Source of the DNA: a virus
Strand: one strand, 5' to 3'
Virus record (IMG/VR): IMGVR_UViG_3300046516_000797
Span: 1 to 39,673 of that record
DNA length: 39,673 nucleotides
Position 1 is the first letter of the stretch; each line of letters starts with the position of its first letter. Position numbers and translations under genes: made by a program. The notes beneath the pieces were generated by a model. That model searched no databases and was not told where the DNA came from. It worked only from the letters and a program-made list of their open reading frames with translations. Shown here one piece after another: positions 9,926 through 30,419 of this stretch.

Positions 9926-10342
9926 ATGTCGGATTCTTCAGCGGTGCAGACCGCACTCGTGGCGAAGCTGGCAGGCGACCAGGCCCTCGCCGACCTGTTG
10001 CCCGATGGGGTGTTTTTCGGCGATGCCGCGCAGGGCGCGACGGCGTTCGTGCTGGTGTCGCTCGTGATTGGCGCGGATGAGCGGATGTTCAACGCGCGCG
10101 CGTGGGAAGCGCCGATCTATCTCGTGCAGGCGGTGCATCTCTCGACAAGCGGGGTCACGGCCGACAACGCGGCGAAGCGGATCGATGAACTGCTGGACGA
10201 CGGGTCGCTCACGATCGAGGGCTATACGCTGATGCACATGGCGCGCGCGGAATACATTCGCGGCGTGGAGCCCGACACGATCGATCCGTCGCTGCGCTGG
10301 CAGCACGCCGGCGGGCGGTACGAAGTGATGGTCAGCGAATGA
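9926..10342 (+). CDS. Tail terminator (DUF3168-like)
   Basis: A 138-aa protein. An N-terminal helix (AVQTALVAKLAGDQALADLL), the central IYLVQAVHLS strand, the helix AKRIDELLDDG and the C-terminal GGRYEVMV strand match the small tail-terminator proteins of siphophages (DUF3168/gp17-like). These cap the growing tail tube. Position between gp10-like protein and the tail tube gene fits, apart from the intervening glycosyltransferase. The stop overlaps the glycosyltransferase start by ATGA. Assignment is from pattern and synteny. Confidence 0.75.
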   Translation: MSDSSAVQTALVAKLAGDQALADLLPDGVFFGDAAQGATAFVLVSLVIGADERMFNARAWEAPIYLVQAVHLSTSGVTADNAAKRIDELLDDGSLTIEGYTLMHMARAEYIRGVEPDTIDPSLRWQHAGGRYEVMVSE

Positions 10343-11982
10343 CGCCACGGTTCTCAGTGATCGTGCCGACGACGGGCCGCGCGACGCTGGTGCGCGCGCT
10401 GCAATCGGTCGCGGACCAGCTCGAGCCGGGCGACGAAGTGATTGTGGTGGGCGGCGACGACGCCGGCGCGGAGGCCGCGATCCGATTCGGCTTCACGTTC
10501 ATCCCGTGCGGGCCCGGTGGGAACTTCGGCTGCACCGAACGGACGATGGGTATCGCGCGCGCGACGGGCACGCATCTGGTCTTTTTGGACGACGACGACG
10601 CGTTTCTGCCGGGCGCGTTCGCGAAGATGCGCGAGGCCTGCGCCGCGCACCCAGGACGGCCGGTGATGTTCCGGATGATTGCGCCAGGCGGTCGGGTGCT
10701 CTGGCACGAGCCTGTGGTCCGCCTCGGCAATCACGGCACGCCGCAATTCGTGACGCCGAACGACCGCGCGCGGCTCGGGCAGTGGGGCACGCGGTACGAA
10801 GGCGATTTCGATTTCTGTGTCTCGACGCTCGCGCACTATCCGGAGGGGGCGCTTGTCTGGGACTCGACCGTGGTGTACACCTGTCGGCCGCAGATCGCGG
10901 CGGTGGGCGGTCGCGTGCTGCTCGTGCATCCTGGGGCGACGGTCGCGCCGGCGGATGTGGAAGCGGGTTTGCGCTTCGGCCTGGAAGCGCACGGCGTCAC
11001 CGTGATCCGGTACCGGCTCGATGAACGCATCGAGGGATCGCGGCGGTGGCTGTACACCGCCTGGCGGCGGGCGAAGCGAACCTACCCGACCTTTGACCGG
11101 CCGACGAGCGCCGATGTCTTCTACCATGCCGGGCTCGGCGCGTTGGAGATGGCGCTGCGGCACCAGGTCGAAGCCGTGGTGATCGTGAGCGCCATGTACC
11201 TGCACCCCGACGTGATCGTGATGCTGAAGCGGGCAGGCCTGCGCGTGGTGGTGCTCTTCACCGAAACCCCGTACGACCTCGACCACGAATTGAAGATCGC
11301 CGCGCTCGTGGATGGCGGCTGGACGAATGAACGCTCGGCGGTGGACGCGTTCCGCGCGGTCAATCCGCGCATGGGCTATCTGGCGCACGGCTGGCATCCG
11401 GAACGGCATCGGCCGGGCCCGCGACCCGGCGACGACCAGGTGACCGCGCACGATGTGGTCTTCGTCGGCACCGGCAATCGCGAGCGCGTGGAGTGGCTGA
11501 CGCAGATCGATTGGACCGGGATCGACCTGGGGCTCTACGGCTCGTGGGATATGTTGGGCTCGCGGTCGCCGCTGCGCGCGTTCGTGCGCGGGAAGCAGAC
11601 CGAGAACAGTCTGACGGCCGCGCTCTATCGTCGCGCCAAGGTCGGCCTGAATCTGTACCGGATGTCGCAAGGGTGGGGACGGCACGCGCCGCCCATCGCG
11701 CACGCCGAGTCCCTGAATCCGCGCGCGTATGAACTCGCGGCGTGTGGCGTGTTCCACGTGAGCACGGATCGCGCCGAAGTGCACGAGGTCTTCGGCGAGC
11801 TCGTGCCGACCTTCACGACCGCTGCGGAGGCCTCGCAACTCCTCCGCACCTGGCTGGCGGCACCGGCGGCGCGCGCGGCGGTGGCCGCGCAGCTGCCGGC
11901 GCGGGTCGCCTCGGGCTCGTGGGTCGCCCGGTCGGCGACCATCATCGCGGATGTGCAATCGCTTGTGGCGCGCGCGGCGTAA
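10339..11982 (+). CDS. Two-domain glycosyltransferase (GT-A plus CgeB-like GT-B)
   Basis: A 547-aa protein. Residues 3-180 form a GT2-like GT-A domain: SVIVPTTGR start, a DEVIVVGGDDA strand, and LVFLDDDDAFLPGAF with the acidic nucleotide-sugar/metal motif at 84-87. Residues about 188-540 resemble the CgeB/Glyco_trans_1 GT-B group: VVFVGTGNRERV, ALYRRAKVGLNLYR, and SLNPRAYELAACGVFHVS (458-475), where this family has N-x-R-x-x-E-x-x-A-x-G. Two transferases in one chain could add two sugars in sequence. It is ATGA-coupled to the tail terminator and precedes the tail tube gene, so virion-protein glycosylation is a natural inference. Target and donor are unknown. Confidence 0.85.
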   Translation: MTPRFSVIVPTTGRATLVRALQSVADQLEPGDEVIVVGGDDAGAEAAIRFGFTFIPCGPGGNFGCTERTMGIARATGTHLVFLDDDDAFLPGAFAKMREACAAHPGRPVMFRMIAPGGRVLWHEPVVRLGNHGTPQFVTPNDRARLGQWGTRYEGDFDFCVSTLAHYPEGALVWDSTVVYTCRPQIAAVGGRVLLVHPGATVAPADVEAGLRFGLEAHGVTVIRYRLDERIEGSRRWLYTAWRRAKRTYPTFDRPTSADVFYHAGLGALEMALRHQVEAVVIVSAMYLHPDVIVMLKRAGLRVVVLFTETPYDLDHELKIAALVDGGWTNERSAVDAFRAVNPRMGYLAHGWHPERHRPGPRPGDDQVTAHDVVFVGTGNRERVEWLTQIDWTGIDLGLYGSWDMLGSRSPLRAFVRGKQTENSLTAALYRRAKVGLNLYRMSQGWGRHAPPIAHAESLNPRAYELAACGVFHVSTDRAEVHEVFGELVPTFTTAAEASQLLRTWLAAPAARAAVAAQLPARVASGSWVARSATIIADVQSLVARAA

Positions 11983-12009: not shown

Positions 12010-12381
12010 ATGCCCCGATATCACGGTGGAAAAGCAATCGTGCAGGCGTCGGTCGGTCAAGCAGGCAGTGTGTCGCAAGTGATCTCGATGTCGAAGTGGT
12101 CGCTGAACAAATCGCGCGATCTGAACAAGGTCTACGTGCAGGGCCTCCCCGACATCAAGGGCACCCTGTCCGGCTTCTGGGATTCGTCGTCCGACGTGTT
12201 GTTCAACGCGGCGGACTCGCCAGACGGTGTGAAGCTGTACCTGTATCCGTCGTCGCTCTATCCGACCTCGTACGAGTACGGCCCGGCCTGGCTCGACCAG
12301 ACCATCGACGTGGACGTGAAGGGCGCGGTGTCCATGACCGGCGCGTTCGTCGCGGCCGGCGCGTGGGGCCACTCGCACTAG
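12010..12381 (+). CDS. Major tail (tube) protein
   Basis: A 123-aa protein with the strongest ribosome-binding site of the region (AAGGAGAAGAGAG ending just before ATG), as expected for a tube subunit made in many copies. The sequence is beta-rich with the pattern MSKWSLNKSRD, VQGLPDIKGTLSGFWD, GVKLYLYPSS and VDVKGAVSMTGAFVAAG, which resembles short tail-tube proteins of siphophages. It lies between the tail terminator/glycosyltransferase and the assembly chaperone genes, the usual place. It is shorter than many tube proteins (150-250 aa). Confidence 0.78.
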   Translation: MPRYHGGKAIVQASVGQAGSVSQVISMSKWSLNKSRDLNKVYVQGLPDIKGTLSGFWDSSSDVLFNAADSPDGVKLYLYPSSLYPTSYEYGPAWLDQTIDVDVKGAVSMTGAFVAAGAWGHSH

Positions 12382-12385
12382 ACCG

Positions 12386-12649
12386 ATGCCGTTGACCGTG
12401 CGCGGCGTCGAGGGCGCGATCCGCCTGGGCTACTACCCGGTGGGCACGCTGCGCGCATGGATCGTGACGCGGATGGACGACACGTGGTCGCTGACCGCGA
12501 CGGTGGAATCGCTGGATGTCTTTCGAGCCTCGCAACGGCCGTTGACATTTGTCGCGCGACACAAAGACGGCCGCTGGGTGTGGCCGATTCAGACGTTGCA
12601 GATTTCGGGCGGCTCGTTGACTGCGAGCCTGGGCCCGCCGGAGAGGTGA
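12386..12649 (+). CDS. Small conserved tail-module protein
   Basis: An 87-aa protein 4 nt after the tail tube gene. Features are LRAWIVTRMDDTWSLTATVES in the middle and a C-terminal ISGGSLTASLGPPER. I recognise this layout (R-x-W-x-V-T-R, then L-x-A-x-L-G-P-P-E) from unnamed proteins that follow the tail tube gene in other phages and prophages. The pattern predicts a compact beta fold. It may be a minor tail component or chaperone; no function is established to my knowledge. No strong Shine-Dalgarno is seen, so it probably relies on coupling. Confidence 0.65.
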   Translation: MPLTVRGVEGAIRLGYYPVGTLRAWIVTRMDDTWSLTATVESLDVFRASQRPLTFVARHKDGRWVWPIQTLQISGGSLTASLGPPER

Positions 12650-21180: not shown

Positions 21181-21459
21181 CGCCTAGGGATTTTCGCTGA
21201 GCGGCTAACCGCGCAGTATATCCCGAGGGAGGGAGAGGCTTCCGAAGAATAGCGGCGAGAAGGATACCGCCGCGCCGCTGGTGCAATAACTTGCAAACAG
21301 CTGAGTAGCTACAAGTTGCAGTGTCACCAGACCTTGCAAGGTTTTTGATGGCCGAATAAAAATTTACGCAAAATCGCGCGAGTTGTGCTTTACCGTTCTT
21401 CGCTTGCGGCTGACGACCTATCACGAACGATAGACGCGCAGCACACGGAGTCGGCGACT
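21181..21459. promoter_or_regulatory. Divergent control region with TTGCAA-centred sites
   Basis: This 279-bp gap separates a leftward unit from the rightward regulator and is AT-richer than its surroundings. Three similar sites are visible: AACTTGCAA (21288-21296), its near inverse CAAGTTGCA (21312-21320), and the perfect palindrome ACCTTGCAAGGT (21331-21342). AACTTG and CAAGTT also form an inverted pair. Such clustered dyads look like operators for the adjacent Xre-type protein. The AT-rich AATAAAAATTTAC at 21355-21367 may hold a promoter. Operator function is inference. Confidence 0.55.
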
Positions 21460-21717
21460 ATGGCTAGACGGTCGGCGGCGGCGACGATCGAGGACCTCAC
21501 TCCACACAGCAGCTTCAATACCCGGCTGAAGCTTGCCATCATCAAGAGCGGAATCCCGCAGGGCAAGATCGCGCACCATCTCGGCATCTCACCGTTCCGC
21601 TTGTCCCGCATCGTGCGCGGCCGACAGGCACCCACCGACGACGAGCAGGACCAACTGGCGGAACTGCTGCGGGAGCCGCGGCGGGTGCTGTTCAAGACGA
21701 CGACGCTCGCGCTGTAA
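21460..21717 (+). CDS. Xre/Cro-family helix-turn-helix regulator
   Basis: An 85-aa protein, ATG at 21460 with GGAG about 9 nt upstream. Residues about 20-72 form a lambda-repressor-like domain: FNTRLKLAIIKSGIPQGKIA, HHLGIS (turn), PFRLSRIVRGRQAPTDDE and a closing helix. There is no peptidase or oligomerisation domain, so it is Cro-like in size. It lies at the divergent control region and could repress the leftward unit or its own operon. Whether it acts as the lysogeny repressor or as Cro cannot be decided from sequence. Confidence 0.82.
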   Translation: MARRSAAATIEDLTPHSSFNTRLKLAIIKSGIPQGKIAHHLGISPFRLSRIVRGRQAPTDDEQDQLAELLREPRRVLFKTTTLAL

Positions 21718-26826: not shown

Positions 26827-27450
26827 ATGGCGAACCTCGACATCGAATCGGTGAAGCGGTACCCGCTGGAATGGCCGATCGGCTGGACGCGCACGCGGCC
26901 GGGCTCGCGCATGGACGCGCCGTTTCGTCACTACAAATCCCGCTTGAACGTGGTCGATGCGCTCGGGCGGCTCGACAGCGAACTCGACCGCCTGGGTGCG
27001 CGCGCGGCGACACTCTCGACGAACGTGTCACTGCGGCTCGATGGGCGGATTCGTGGCGACGAGAGCCCGGCCGATCCTGGGGTCGCGGTGTACTTCACGT
27101 TCAAGGGCAAGGCGACGGTGCTCGCGTCGGATCGGTTCCTGCGCGTGGCCGACAACATCGCCGCGATCGCCGGGCACATCGAAGCGATTCGACGCGTGGA
27201 ACGGTACGGGGTCGGCACGATTGAGCAGGCACTGGCCGGCTACAAGGCACTGCCAGCAGACTCAGCCGCCAACTGGCGCGCGGTCTTCGGCTTCTCGGCC
27301 GACGCTGCGCCGACGCTCGACCAGGTGGACGCGGCGTATAAGCGGCTGGCTCGGGCGAAGCATCCGGATGTGGGCGGCTCGGAAATCGAGATGGCGCACC
27401 TGAACCGCGCGCGCGACTACGCGCTCGGAGAATTGGAACGGGCCTCGTGA
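26827..27450 (+). CDS. J-domain (DnaJ-like) protein
   Basis: A 207-aa protein. The C-terminal 50 residues form a J-domain: LDQVDAAYKRLARAKHPD with the diagnostic HPD at 179-181, then GGSEIEMAHLNRARDYALGEL. J-domains stimulate Hsp70 ATPases, so this could recruit host DnaK, for example in replication complex remodelling. Residues 1-155 are a separate conserved region (YPLEWPIGWTRT, PFRHYKSRL, AVYFTFKGKATVLASDRF) seen in other phage J-domain proteins. Start ATG 26827, 4 nt after the previous stop; the stop overlaps the next GTG. Confidence 0.88.
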   Translation: MANLDIESVKRYPLEWPIGWTRTRPGSRMDAPFRHYKSRLNVVDALGRLDSELDRLGARAATLSTNVSLRLDGRIRGDESPADPGVAVYFTFKGKATVLASDRFLRVADNIAAIAGHIEAIRRVERYGVGTIEQALAGYKALPADSAANWRAVFGFSADAAPTLDQVDAAYKRLARAKHPDVGGSEIEMAHLNRARDYALGELERAS

Positions 27451-28313
27451 GAATCGGTCTGAACGGCATGGGCGACGCACCGCTGCCACAGGACGAGTGC
27501 GATTTCATCGCCTCGTGGGGACCGATGACCGTACGGGCGGGCGTGACGAGGGCCGACGGTGCCGCCGCCACACTCGCGGCCTGCGACAAGACGCAGCCAC
27601 GGCCGATTGAATGTCTCTTTCTGGTGCAGGGCATCGACCTCGGCCTCGTGTATGACCTCGGTCATGTGCTCAAGGGACGCAGCGACATCGGCATCGAGTT
27701 GGGCAACGAGTTGAACCTGGTCGGCATCGCGCCGGTTGATTTCGGCGCGTTCGTGTTGGAATCGTACCGCACGCTGCGCGACCTCGGGTTCACTGGCGAG
27801 ATTTGGTCGGGCGGGCTATCCGACTGCCGACAAGCGACGCTCGATTACCTCGTCACCGCTGGCATCTACGACTGGCCCACCGACCTCGGTGTCGCGCTGC
27901 ATCGGTACCCCGAGAATCCGTGGACGCAGGACCCGACGCTCGGCCAGGGTCCGACACGCAGCGATGTGTACGACAAGCGCGAGCGATGGCGTGAGCAAGC
28001 CGACATCATGGCCGTGACGGGCAATCGCGCATTGGCGATCACCGAGTTCGGCTATCACTACGAGTTTCAGACGACTGGGTGGGGCGACTACCGACGCCAC
28101 ACGCAGTTGACGCAGGAGCAGGGCGCGGCCCATCTCGCGGCCGACCTGTGGTGGTTCAGCCAGATGAACGTGCAGCTCGCCACGATGTACCAATGGACCG
28201 ACGGTCCACCAGACGCGTTCAACGAAGCGATCAACCGATTCGGGATTCGTAAATCTGACGGCACGTACCGCGAGCGCATCATCGACGTGCTCCGCGATTG
28301 GTCGAACCGATGA
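27447..28313 (+). CDS. Putative clan GH-A glycoside hydrolase-like protein
   Basis: A 288-aa protein with a TIM-barrel glycosidase look. Clan GH-A markers are GIELGNELN with Glu88 as likely acid/base (the NE motif after strand 4), LHRYPE after strand 6, LAITEFGYHYEF with Glu200 as likely nucleophile, and MYQWTDG at strand 8. Length is normal for a minimal barrel. There is no signal peptide. GTG start in a GTGA overlap with the J-domain gene. It could degrade host surface or cell-wall glycans during entry or release. Substrate cannot be told from sequence. Confidence 0.72.
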   Translation: MRIGLNGMGDAPLPQDECDFIASWGPMTVRAGVTRADGAAATLAACDKTQPRPIECLFLVQGIDLGLVYDLGHVLKGRSDIGIELGNELNLVGIAPVDFGAFVLESYRTLRDLGFTGEIWSGGLSDCRQATLDYLVTAGIYDWPTDLGVALHRYPENPWTQDPTLGQGPTRSDVYDKRERWREQADIMAVTGNRALAITEFGYHYEFQTTGWGDYRRHTQLTQEQGAAHLAADLWWFSQMNVQLATMYQWTDGPPDAFNEAINRFGIRKSDGTYRERIIDVLRDWSNR

Positions 28314-28624: not shown

Positions 28625-29028
28625 ACGCGATGTCACGGACACACTGCGGCGATGCGAACGCACCGGAGCTCTCGATCCGGTACACGACCACGAAGGTCGG
28701 CCTCGGCGAGACCAAGGACCAGACGATCCTCGTCGTCTCGAATCCCGACCCGGTGAACGGCAAGACGCTCGGGCCGTACGAGCAGGACGGCATCACCCCG
28801 CGCTTCACGGGTGATGGACTGACCCTCTCGTGTCAACCGAACGGCTCGCTCGAAGTGCGACCGGCCGGCGCGTGGGCAGAATTCGAGGTCGCGCAGATCG
28901 ACGCAGCGGGAAACGTCACATACTGGCCGGGCCAGGCGTTCATCAATTCGCCGAACATCCCACAGCCGCAGCGGGGCACCTGCTACAAGTTCCTGGGAAC
29001 GCTCAACGTTCCGGTGGTTCGTCCATGA
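28621..29028 (+). CDS. Hypothetical beta-rich protein
   Basis: A 135-aa protein, AAGGAGC 6 nt upstream and ATGA overlaps at both ends. Strand-rich segments include LSIRYTTTKVG, DQTILVVSNPDP, LTLSCQPNGSLEVRPAG and AEFEVAQIDAAGNVTYW, a compact beta-sandwich-like pattern. It contains two Cys and many Gly/Pro turns. No known family. By position it could be a partner or structural companion of the glycosidase-like protein that follows. Confidence 0.55.
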   Translation: MNAMSRTHCGDANAPELSIRYTTTKVGLGETKDQTILVVSNPDPVNGKTLGPYEQDGITPRFTGDGLTLSCQPNGSLEVRPAGAWAEFEVAQIDAAGNVTYWPGQAFINSPNIPQPQRGTCYKFLGTLNVPVVRP

Positions 29029-30419
29029 ACGCGCAGACGCTGGCGCTCTTGAACACCGTCGTCGCGACCGCTGACGCGCCAACGAAACCCGCGCGGAAGG
29101 GCACGGTGCGCTGGCAGGGCAAGGCGGTCTACGACGACACCGGAGTCTTTCACCCGCTCGGGATGACATTTTTCTGGGCGATGCAGGGCTGGCGAAACGA
29201 GCGGCCGCGGTTCCTGGCGAACCTCGATTGGTTGATCGCGGCCTGCCTGACCGCGAAGATCGATCCGCCCGACTACCTGCGGCAACTCTGTCAGGTGGAC
29301 TGGCTCGGCAACGCGATCGATCCCACGTGGCCCGAGTACGACGACGTGTTTCTCGGCGCGACGGGCGAGACGCAGAAACGCGGGATGCGGACCGAGGCCA
29401 CGGTCTTCGGTTCACCCTACAACGACCCGGTGGCGCTCGCGGTGCGGTTGTCGCGGCTGATCGCGCGCCATCCAGCCGGGTTCATGGACATCGAAACCTG
29501 GAACGAATGGGCGCAGAACGGCGGCAGCATCGAGTCGATGCAGCAATGCGCGCGCGTGTTCCTGGTGGAGTCCGGCGTGCCGCTCGTGGCGCTGTCGTCC
29601 GACATCATCGGCGACGACATCGCCGACGCGACCGCGCAGTGCGGGGCGTCGATGGGCACCGCGCACACGGATCGGAGTGACGCCGAAGGCGGATGGCGGA
29701 TGGTCCGTCAGGGGTTCGACGCAAAAGCGACGCGCGTGATCTACTCAGGCAACGAACCGCCTGGGCCGCACTCGTCTGTGGGTGTGCTGCACAGCCCGTT
29801 GCAGCTGGCGATGCTGCGAGCCGTGACGATTCAATCGGGCGGGGCGCTGTGGCTGCTCCACGTGGGCGATATGGTCATGGGCATCGAAGACCCAGGGCAC
29901 GACCGGCACCCGAACCTCTGGCAAGTGCAGATGACCGAGCCGATCACCGGCAAGGTCTACTCGCTCATCGACGCGCTGAAAGCGGTCCGCGCGGTGGATG
30001 CGTGGATGCCGGCGAACGTCGAGAACTGGCAGAAATCGGCTGGCAATCCGAACATCCAACCGCAGGCGCTCGTGTGCGACATCACGGGCTGGCCTGACGG
30101 CGGCGAGGGCACGAACCGCTGCTACAACGCGTGGTCTGGCGATGGCCGCTTCACCCAGGTGCTGTGCGGCATCAAGGGGCGACGCACGTTCACGCAGGTG
30201 TGTCCCGATGGCGGGACCTACCACATCACCGGGATCAACCCAGAGACGGACGAGCGGCTCGATTGGACGCTGGCCTCGGGGCAGACCGTCGTGATCGACG
30301 GACCCGCGAACGGACTGCTCGGCTACATCCTGAACGGGGTCCGCGTGCCGGGCCCCGCCGCGCGCGCGGTGGTCTATCCGCCGCTGACGATCGCCGACGA
30401 CGTGCGGCTCGAGCTGTGA
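29025..30419 (+). CDS. Second glycoside hydrolase-like protein (TIM barrel plus beta tail)
   Basis: A 464-aa protein. After a 30-residue leader, HPLGMTFFWAMQGW and FLANLDWLIA resemble the first strands of cellulase-type GH-A barrels; FMDIETWNEW supplies the strand-4 Asn160-Glu161 pair, and VIYSGNEPPGPHSS (Glu244) may hold the nucleophile. The last 80 residues (GGTYHITGINPETDERLDW, VVIDGPANG) are beta-rich, possibly carbohydrate binding. Divergent from the first glycosidase-like gene, so not a recent duplicate. ATGA-coupled start; small membrane proteins follow. Enzymatic activity is inference. Confidence 0.62.
   Translation: MNAQTLALLNTVVATADAPTKPARKGTVRWQGKAVYDDTGVFHPLGMTFFWAMQGWRNERPRFLANLDWLIAACLTAKIDPPDYLRQLCQVDWLGNAIDPTWPEYDDVFLGATGETQKRGMRTEATVFGSPYNDPVALAVRLSRLIARHPAGFMDIETWNEWAQNGGSIESMQQCARVFLVESGVPLVALSSDIIGDDIADATAQCGASMGTAHTDRSDAEGGWRMVRQGFDAKATRVIYSGNEPPGPHSSVGVLHSPLQLAMLRAVTIQSGGALWLLHVGDMVMGIEDPGHDRHPNLWQVQMTEPITGKVYSLIDALKAVRAVDAWMPANVENWQKSAGNPNIQPQALVCDITGWPDGGEGTNRCYNAWSGDGRFTQVLCGIKGRRTFTQVCPDGGTYHITGINPETDERLDWTLASGQTVVIDGPANGLLGYILNGVRVPGPAARAVVYPPLTIADDVRLEL

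Follow-up and report, generated by a model that had tools for sequence, protein, structure and literature searches.

In the window analysed here (the 39,673 nt of IMG/VR virus record IMGVR_UViG_3300046516_000797), a gene for a predicted two-domain glycosyltransferase (GT) lies directly upstream of the tail tube gene. Comparison with related phages showed that its GT-B part is obligately paired with one clade of tail tube proteins, with which it is co-inherited against freely recombining neighbours. That the GT-B gene always accompanies the tube gene suggests that these phages sugar-coat their own tails. Features are listed in Table 1.

Table 1. Features of the fused gene and its neighbours (feature, position in the window, strand, basis)
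Putative tail terminator/completion protein	9926..10342	+	PF11367 E 0.006 (below cut-off); synteny in ~100 loci
GT-A domain, GT2-like, residues 1-183	10339..10887	+	PF00535, AlphaFold model, Foldseek GT2 matches
DDDD putative metal/nucleotide-sugar motif, residues 84-87	10588..10599	+	Invariant in alignment A2
YEGDFDF, residues 153-159	10795..10815	+	D156 and D158 invariant
Flexible interdomain linker, residues ~184-191	10888..10911	+	pLDDT <50 at residues 184-190
GT-B domain, CgeB/GT4-like, residues 192-547	10912..11979	+	PF13524, GT4 fold matches, relatives
EX7E motif (E457-E465), typical of retaining GT-B enzymes	11707..11733	+	Motif position, conservation
Tail tube protein, 123 aa	12010..12381	+	Model of homologue L014, Foldseek, alignment
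Tube segment with Y77, Y79, Y88 and Y90	12238..12279	+	Column comparison, 98 vs 40 tubes
87-aa gene	12386..12649	+	Co-inherited with tube and GT-B

The ORF at 10339-11982 (plus strand, ATG start) encodes a product of 547 aa. The GT-A half matched PF00535 (Glycos_transf_2; residues 6-104, E 7e-9, 36.2 bits against a curated cut-off of 23.3) and the GT-B half matched PF13524 (Glyco_trans_1_2; residues 384-535, E 1.6e-15, 57.7 bits against a cut-off of 25). The AlphaFold model consisted of two globular parts (residues 1-183 and 192-547, mean pLDDT 84), for which Foldseek searches of the PDB returned the GT2 enzymes WrtF, TarS and 6p61 (GT-A half) and the retaining GT4 enzymes MshA and BshA (GT-B half). 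The first-pass annotation, made from the letters of the DNA, had proposed a GT-A domain carrying the DDDD motif, and a CgeB-like GT-B domain with an N-x-R-x-x-E-x-x-A-x-G pattern at residues 460-470. Both proposals were borne out, since structure prediction, which it had named as a check, gave a GT fold in each half, and the protein is confirmed as a predicted enzyme in which a GT-A (GT2) domain is fused to a CgeB-like GT-B domain. Residues 455-470 (HAESLNPRAYELAACG) include the EX7E motif (E457..E465); E465 is invariant and E457 is kept in at least 90% of the aligned relatives. More than 200 GT-B relatives were found in IMG/VR; GT-A-only rows, which a joint alignment placed wrongly onto GT-B, were left out of the model. 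The YEGDFDF segment is a candidate for the catalytic acid/base region of the GT2 half. The dN/dS values against the sister locus (0.16 for GT-A and 0.13 for GT-B) indicate that both halves are under purifying selection.

The ATG of the fused gene and the stop codon of ORF 9926-10342 (TGA) share bases as ATGA, as had been noted earlier, and an overlap of this kind with the stop of the terminator gene is seen in the slot generally, regardless of its cargo. The label of ORF 9926-10342 as a tail terminator is putative and weaker than that of the tube. The tube gene (12010-12381) begins 27 nt past the fused gene, behind its own AGGAGA-like ribosome-binding site, which agrees with the position claimed for it. 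Its assignment was supported by the homologue at locus L014 (56% identical to the window tube), the model of which has the beta-sandwich with flanking helix of a tail tube and matched the monocin, R4C, GTA and lambda tubes in Foldseek (best E 1.1e-6, TM up to 0.81). Farther upstream lie genes for head completion, connector, capsid, protease, portal and terminase. The genes tested included none for the synthesis of nucleotide sugars.

Relatives were gathered from IMG/VR with separate queries (whole protein, GT-B, GT-A, tube and terminator). They represent a large group of uncultured phages, mostly from soil, on metagenomic contigs; a scan of genome contigs gave only two MAG contigs (Propionibacteriaceae and Gallionellaceae), too weak a result to name a host. 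Among 100 distinct loci in which terminator and tube were both present, the two genes were separated by 23-62 nt in 30 and by about 220 nt in 2, while the slot held GT-B in 59 and other ORFs in 9. Ahead of GT-B in these 59 loci was a methyltransferase-like ORF (30 loci), a GT-A (10) or nothing (15); 4 loci were not classified. The methyltransferase-like ORFs were of three sequence types; representatives of two exceeded the Pfam cut-off (PF08241, E 9e-15; PF13489, E 7e-7) and that of the third was below it. The fusion of GT-A with GT-B is shared by the window, L001-L004 and L027, whereas L008, L012, L017, L057 and L082 encode the two as separate genes. GT-B is thus the constant element of the slot, and the partner preceding it is exchangeable (GT-A or SAM-methyltransferase types) or absent. 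Since GT-A is one of several interchangeable states (absent, GT-A, methyltransferase), the GT-A half would represent a variable second step rather than the core. The survey of related phages that had been suggested therefore gave a divided answer: GT-B is kept with its tube clade, but the fusion is not general, and in relatives the slot may be empty or filled with other cargo. As a separate observation, five GT-B-less slots (L220, L211, L230, L232 and L250) contained a beta-like ORF of about 166 aa belonging to no known family, possibly a tube decoration protein.

The first-pass annotation had argued from the coupling to virion genes. This position is real, but the slot also takes non-GT genes, so that adjacency by itself is weak evidence and was rejected as proof of a link to the tube; the argument is carried by the co-inheritance test. 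In tube-anchored loci (the best 80 of 238), GT-B lay directly upstream of the tube in 79, and in the remaining one (L315) it was found about 800 nt upstream of the tube, so that no loss of GT-B was seen among these best 80 down to 57% tube identity. Conversely, in each of the 71 GT-B loci that had 500 nt or more of sequence downstream, the tube was found there. Terminator-anchored loci, on the other hand, had GT-B in only 21 of 69 determinable cases (roughly 30%). Distance alone does not explain this contrast, because the terminator adjoins the cassette as closely as does the tube.

The fewest changes of GT-B presence required on each gene's tree were counted for the same 66 loci. The tube tree needed 1 change and that of the 87-aa gene 2, against 10 for the chaperone-like gene, 12 for the terminator, 14 for the gp10-like gene and 16 for the tape measure. 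In a set of 24 loci, the capsid tree required 7 changes and the tube tree 1, on which ground the capsid was rejected as the target; of the two acceptors offered originally, tail tube or capsid, only the tube was retained. GT-B-carrying tubes formed one clade with support of about 100 (99.9). Since short proteins give poorly resolved trees, AU tests were also run, and a single GT-B clade was rejected for the terminator (p 7e-4), the gp10-like gene (p 1e-24) and the chaperone-like gene (p 3e-4), but not for the 87-aa gene (p-AU 0.77). Pairwise GT-B distances in 39 GT-B loci correlated best with those of the tube (Spearman 0.68, the highest of all neighbours); the values for the other neighbours ranged from 0.15 to 0.41. 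Along the tube tree the partner switches 18 times, whereas GT-B is never lost. GT-B follows the tube tree and is therefore part of a tube module, supporting the tail tube over the capsid as the target.

Constancy of GT-B together with an exchangeable partner is most simply read as a first glycosylation, after which a second sugar may be added or the sugar methylated. In this proposal, the fused gene would supply the modifying enzyme of a module that glycosylates the tail tube while the late genes are expressed. Using a host-made nucleotide-sugar donor, the GT-B domain would attach the first sugar to the tube protein of the adjacent gene, and the fused GT-A domain would add the second; a disaccharide built by the two domains, as suggested at the outset, is plausible. 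In related phages a methyltransferase in place of GT-A would cap the sugar, or the second step would be absent, and the outcome would be a short, exchangeable surface glycan on the tube. Although we infer the activity, the acceptor, the order of the steps and the residues, we consider this reading as a whole to be probable, with the tube as the most likely acceptor, ahead of the co-inherited 87-aa protein. A broader version, which is possible but rather doubtful, is that a common lineage of uncultured temperate siphophages has an obligately glycosylated tube, on which a GT-B of the retaining type, dedicated to and co-evolving with one clade of tubes, would place the first sugar at an outer Tyr/Ser patch, possibly through tyrosine O-linkage, and that the swappable second enzyme diversifies the glycan.

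Candidates for the acceptor residues would be the GT-B-specific Tyr and Ser positions of the tube, several of which are probably on the outer sheet. The Ser/Thr content is higher in GT-B tubes than in GT-B-less tubes (20.3% vs 16.0%). Alignment columns were compared between 98 GT-B and 40 GT-B-less tubes. Residues Y77, Y79, Y88 and Y90 of the window tube correspond to Y86, Y88, Y97 and Y99 in L014 numbering (used from here on), positions that are Tyr in 81-100% of GT-B tubes and mostly non-Tyr in the others. Position S14 is Ser/Thr in 84% of GT-B tubes vs 0% of GT-B-less tubes, and corresponding differences were found at S79 (92% vs 5%) and S/T107 (95% vs 17%). In tail tubes, beta4 and beta5.1 belong to the outer sheet (PMC8718954); strands 83-88 and 98-103 of the L014 tube are beta4 and beta5.1 by strand order. 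The Tyr patch should face outward, because L85 and L87 face the core, an orientation read from strand order only; residue 107 would belong to the inner sheet. GT-B tubes arose once, so that the Tyr/Ser signature has no independent replicates and, as a pointer to acceptor residues, is suggestive only. It was also observed that, relative to the sister locus L001, 9 residues (27 nt, in frame) are missing after R36 from the beta2-beta3 loop of the window tube, a loop that makes an inter-ring contact in known tubes. The tube of the sister L002 lacks a different 9-residue stretch; these gaps either are true deletions or arose in assembly.

Another virion protein of the block or the tail could be the target instead, although this seems unlikely. 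The 87-aa gene co-segregates with GT-B nearly as well as the tube (2 vs 1 changes) and its product could have the target role, but its distances correlate less well with those of GT-B (0.36 vs 0.68). Fibre-like ORFs occur in the same slot in L005, L208 and L185; such genes are rare and show no link to GT-B, which is missing from the terminator-tube pairs of L208 and L185. Physical linkage, with recombination breakpoints flanking the block, could also give co-inheritance without a functional link, so that GT-B would ride as a passenger on a tube-side recombination block and act on something else. The free recombination around the slot in these phages and its non-GT cargo are in keeping with such a passenger, which nevertheless appears improbable given that GT-B was never lost in the best 80 of 238 tube-anchored loci while its partner was swapped often.

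The claim that the virion, rather than the host or the DNA, is modified was well supported by the comparative data, since GT-B is co-inherited with the tube. It is very unlikely that the enzyme alters the O-antigen or teichoic acid of the host surface to bring about lysogenic conversion or superinfection exclusion. The phage is probably temperate, because a tyrosine integrase (PF00589, 32503-33897) and an HTH protein (21385-21717) are encoded in the window, and GT2 and CgeB-type enzymes also work in the synthesis of surface polysaccharides. However, the gene is within the late morphogenesis operon and coupled to virion genes, GT-B tracks the tube gene across phages, and neither a flippase nor a membrane GT, the components of a Gtr-type serotype-conversion cassette, was recognised among the window ORFs scanned. 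Phage GTs can also modify DNA (PMC12619734), but glucosylation of DNA bases is hardly to be expected here, since the genes scanned included neither a hydroxymethylase nor any base-modifying gene and GT-B is linked to the tube and not to replication genes.

To our knowledge, the experimental record of phage virion glycosylation is confined to a few mycobacteriophages. Two reports (PMC12363180, PMC12619734) describe glycosylated proteins in Che8, Corndog and Myrna, with glycans on the mycobacteriophage capsid and tail tube that are added by GTs of the phages themselves. The closest precedent is of the Corndog type, in which a cassette of one O-methyltransferase and three GT genes lies inside the structural operon (PMC4351075). 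According to the slot survey and co-segregation, the present module resembles these systems in having phage-encoded GT genes within or linked to virion structural genes. The enzymes differ: Che8 gp108 was assigned to GT2 plus TylF/Methyltransf_24, gp109 gave a weak GT2 match and gp110 was GT25, so that only the broad GT2 family is shared, and hhalign probabilities of the Che8 enzymes against GT-B or GT-A were below 3% for the pairs tried. Placement differs as well, the genes being at the genome end in Che8 and between portal and protease in Corndog, whereas the present slot is beside the tube, co-inherited with it and open to exchange of the partner. The present system would thus work like mycobacteriophage glycosylation, with other enzymes and a tube-linked slot. 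The GT-B half resembles the CgeB-like enzymes of PF13524 in its Pfam score above the cut-off, EX7E motif and GT4-like fold, but differs in its fusion to GT-A and its tie to the tail tube of a phage. Pairing of a GT with a methyltransferase is also known from Rhodococcus cluster CB phages, where it was proposed to glycosylate virions (PMC13313380). Searches with tblastn of the full protein and GT-B against 50,697 cultured phage records gave no match, nor did the tube match cultured phages.

Taken with these precedents, the comparative data suggest an enzyme solution for virion glycosylation that is separate from theirs and tied to the tube itself. Because the module points to a likely acceptor, offers candidate residues and has a second step open to exchange, a role of tail glycans (shielding, receptor or decoy, tube stability) becomes testable with three genes.

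Further observations concern other parts of the window and of related contigs. Directly ahead of the terminase genes, 607-1359 encodes a DUF5131/phrog_2045 protein (Pfam E 4e-66). The ORFs at 27447-28313 and 28830-30419 look by eye like TIM-barrel glycoside hydrolases (ELGNELN...ITEFGYH and DIETWNEW, respectively), had no Pfam match and are possibly tail-associated or lysis glycosidases. In L007 (3610-8555), a GT-A-only relative follows shortly after a fibre-like ORF of 1004 aa, upstream of a capsid-like gene. Another GT cassette was found at a different virion locus in L006 (1-3274), where an ORF with collagen-like GXX repeats precedes a CgeB-like GT-B gene and two GT-A genes, and the head-tail connector comes after them.
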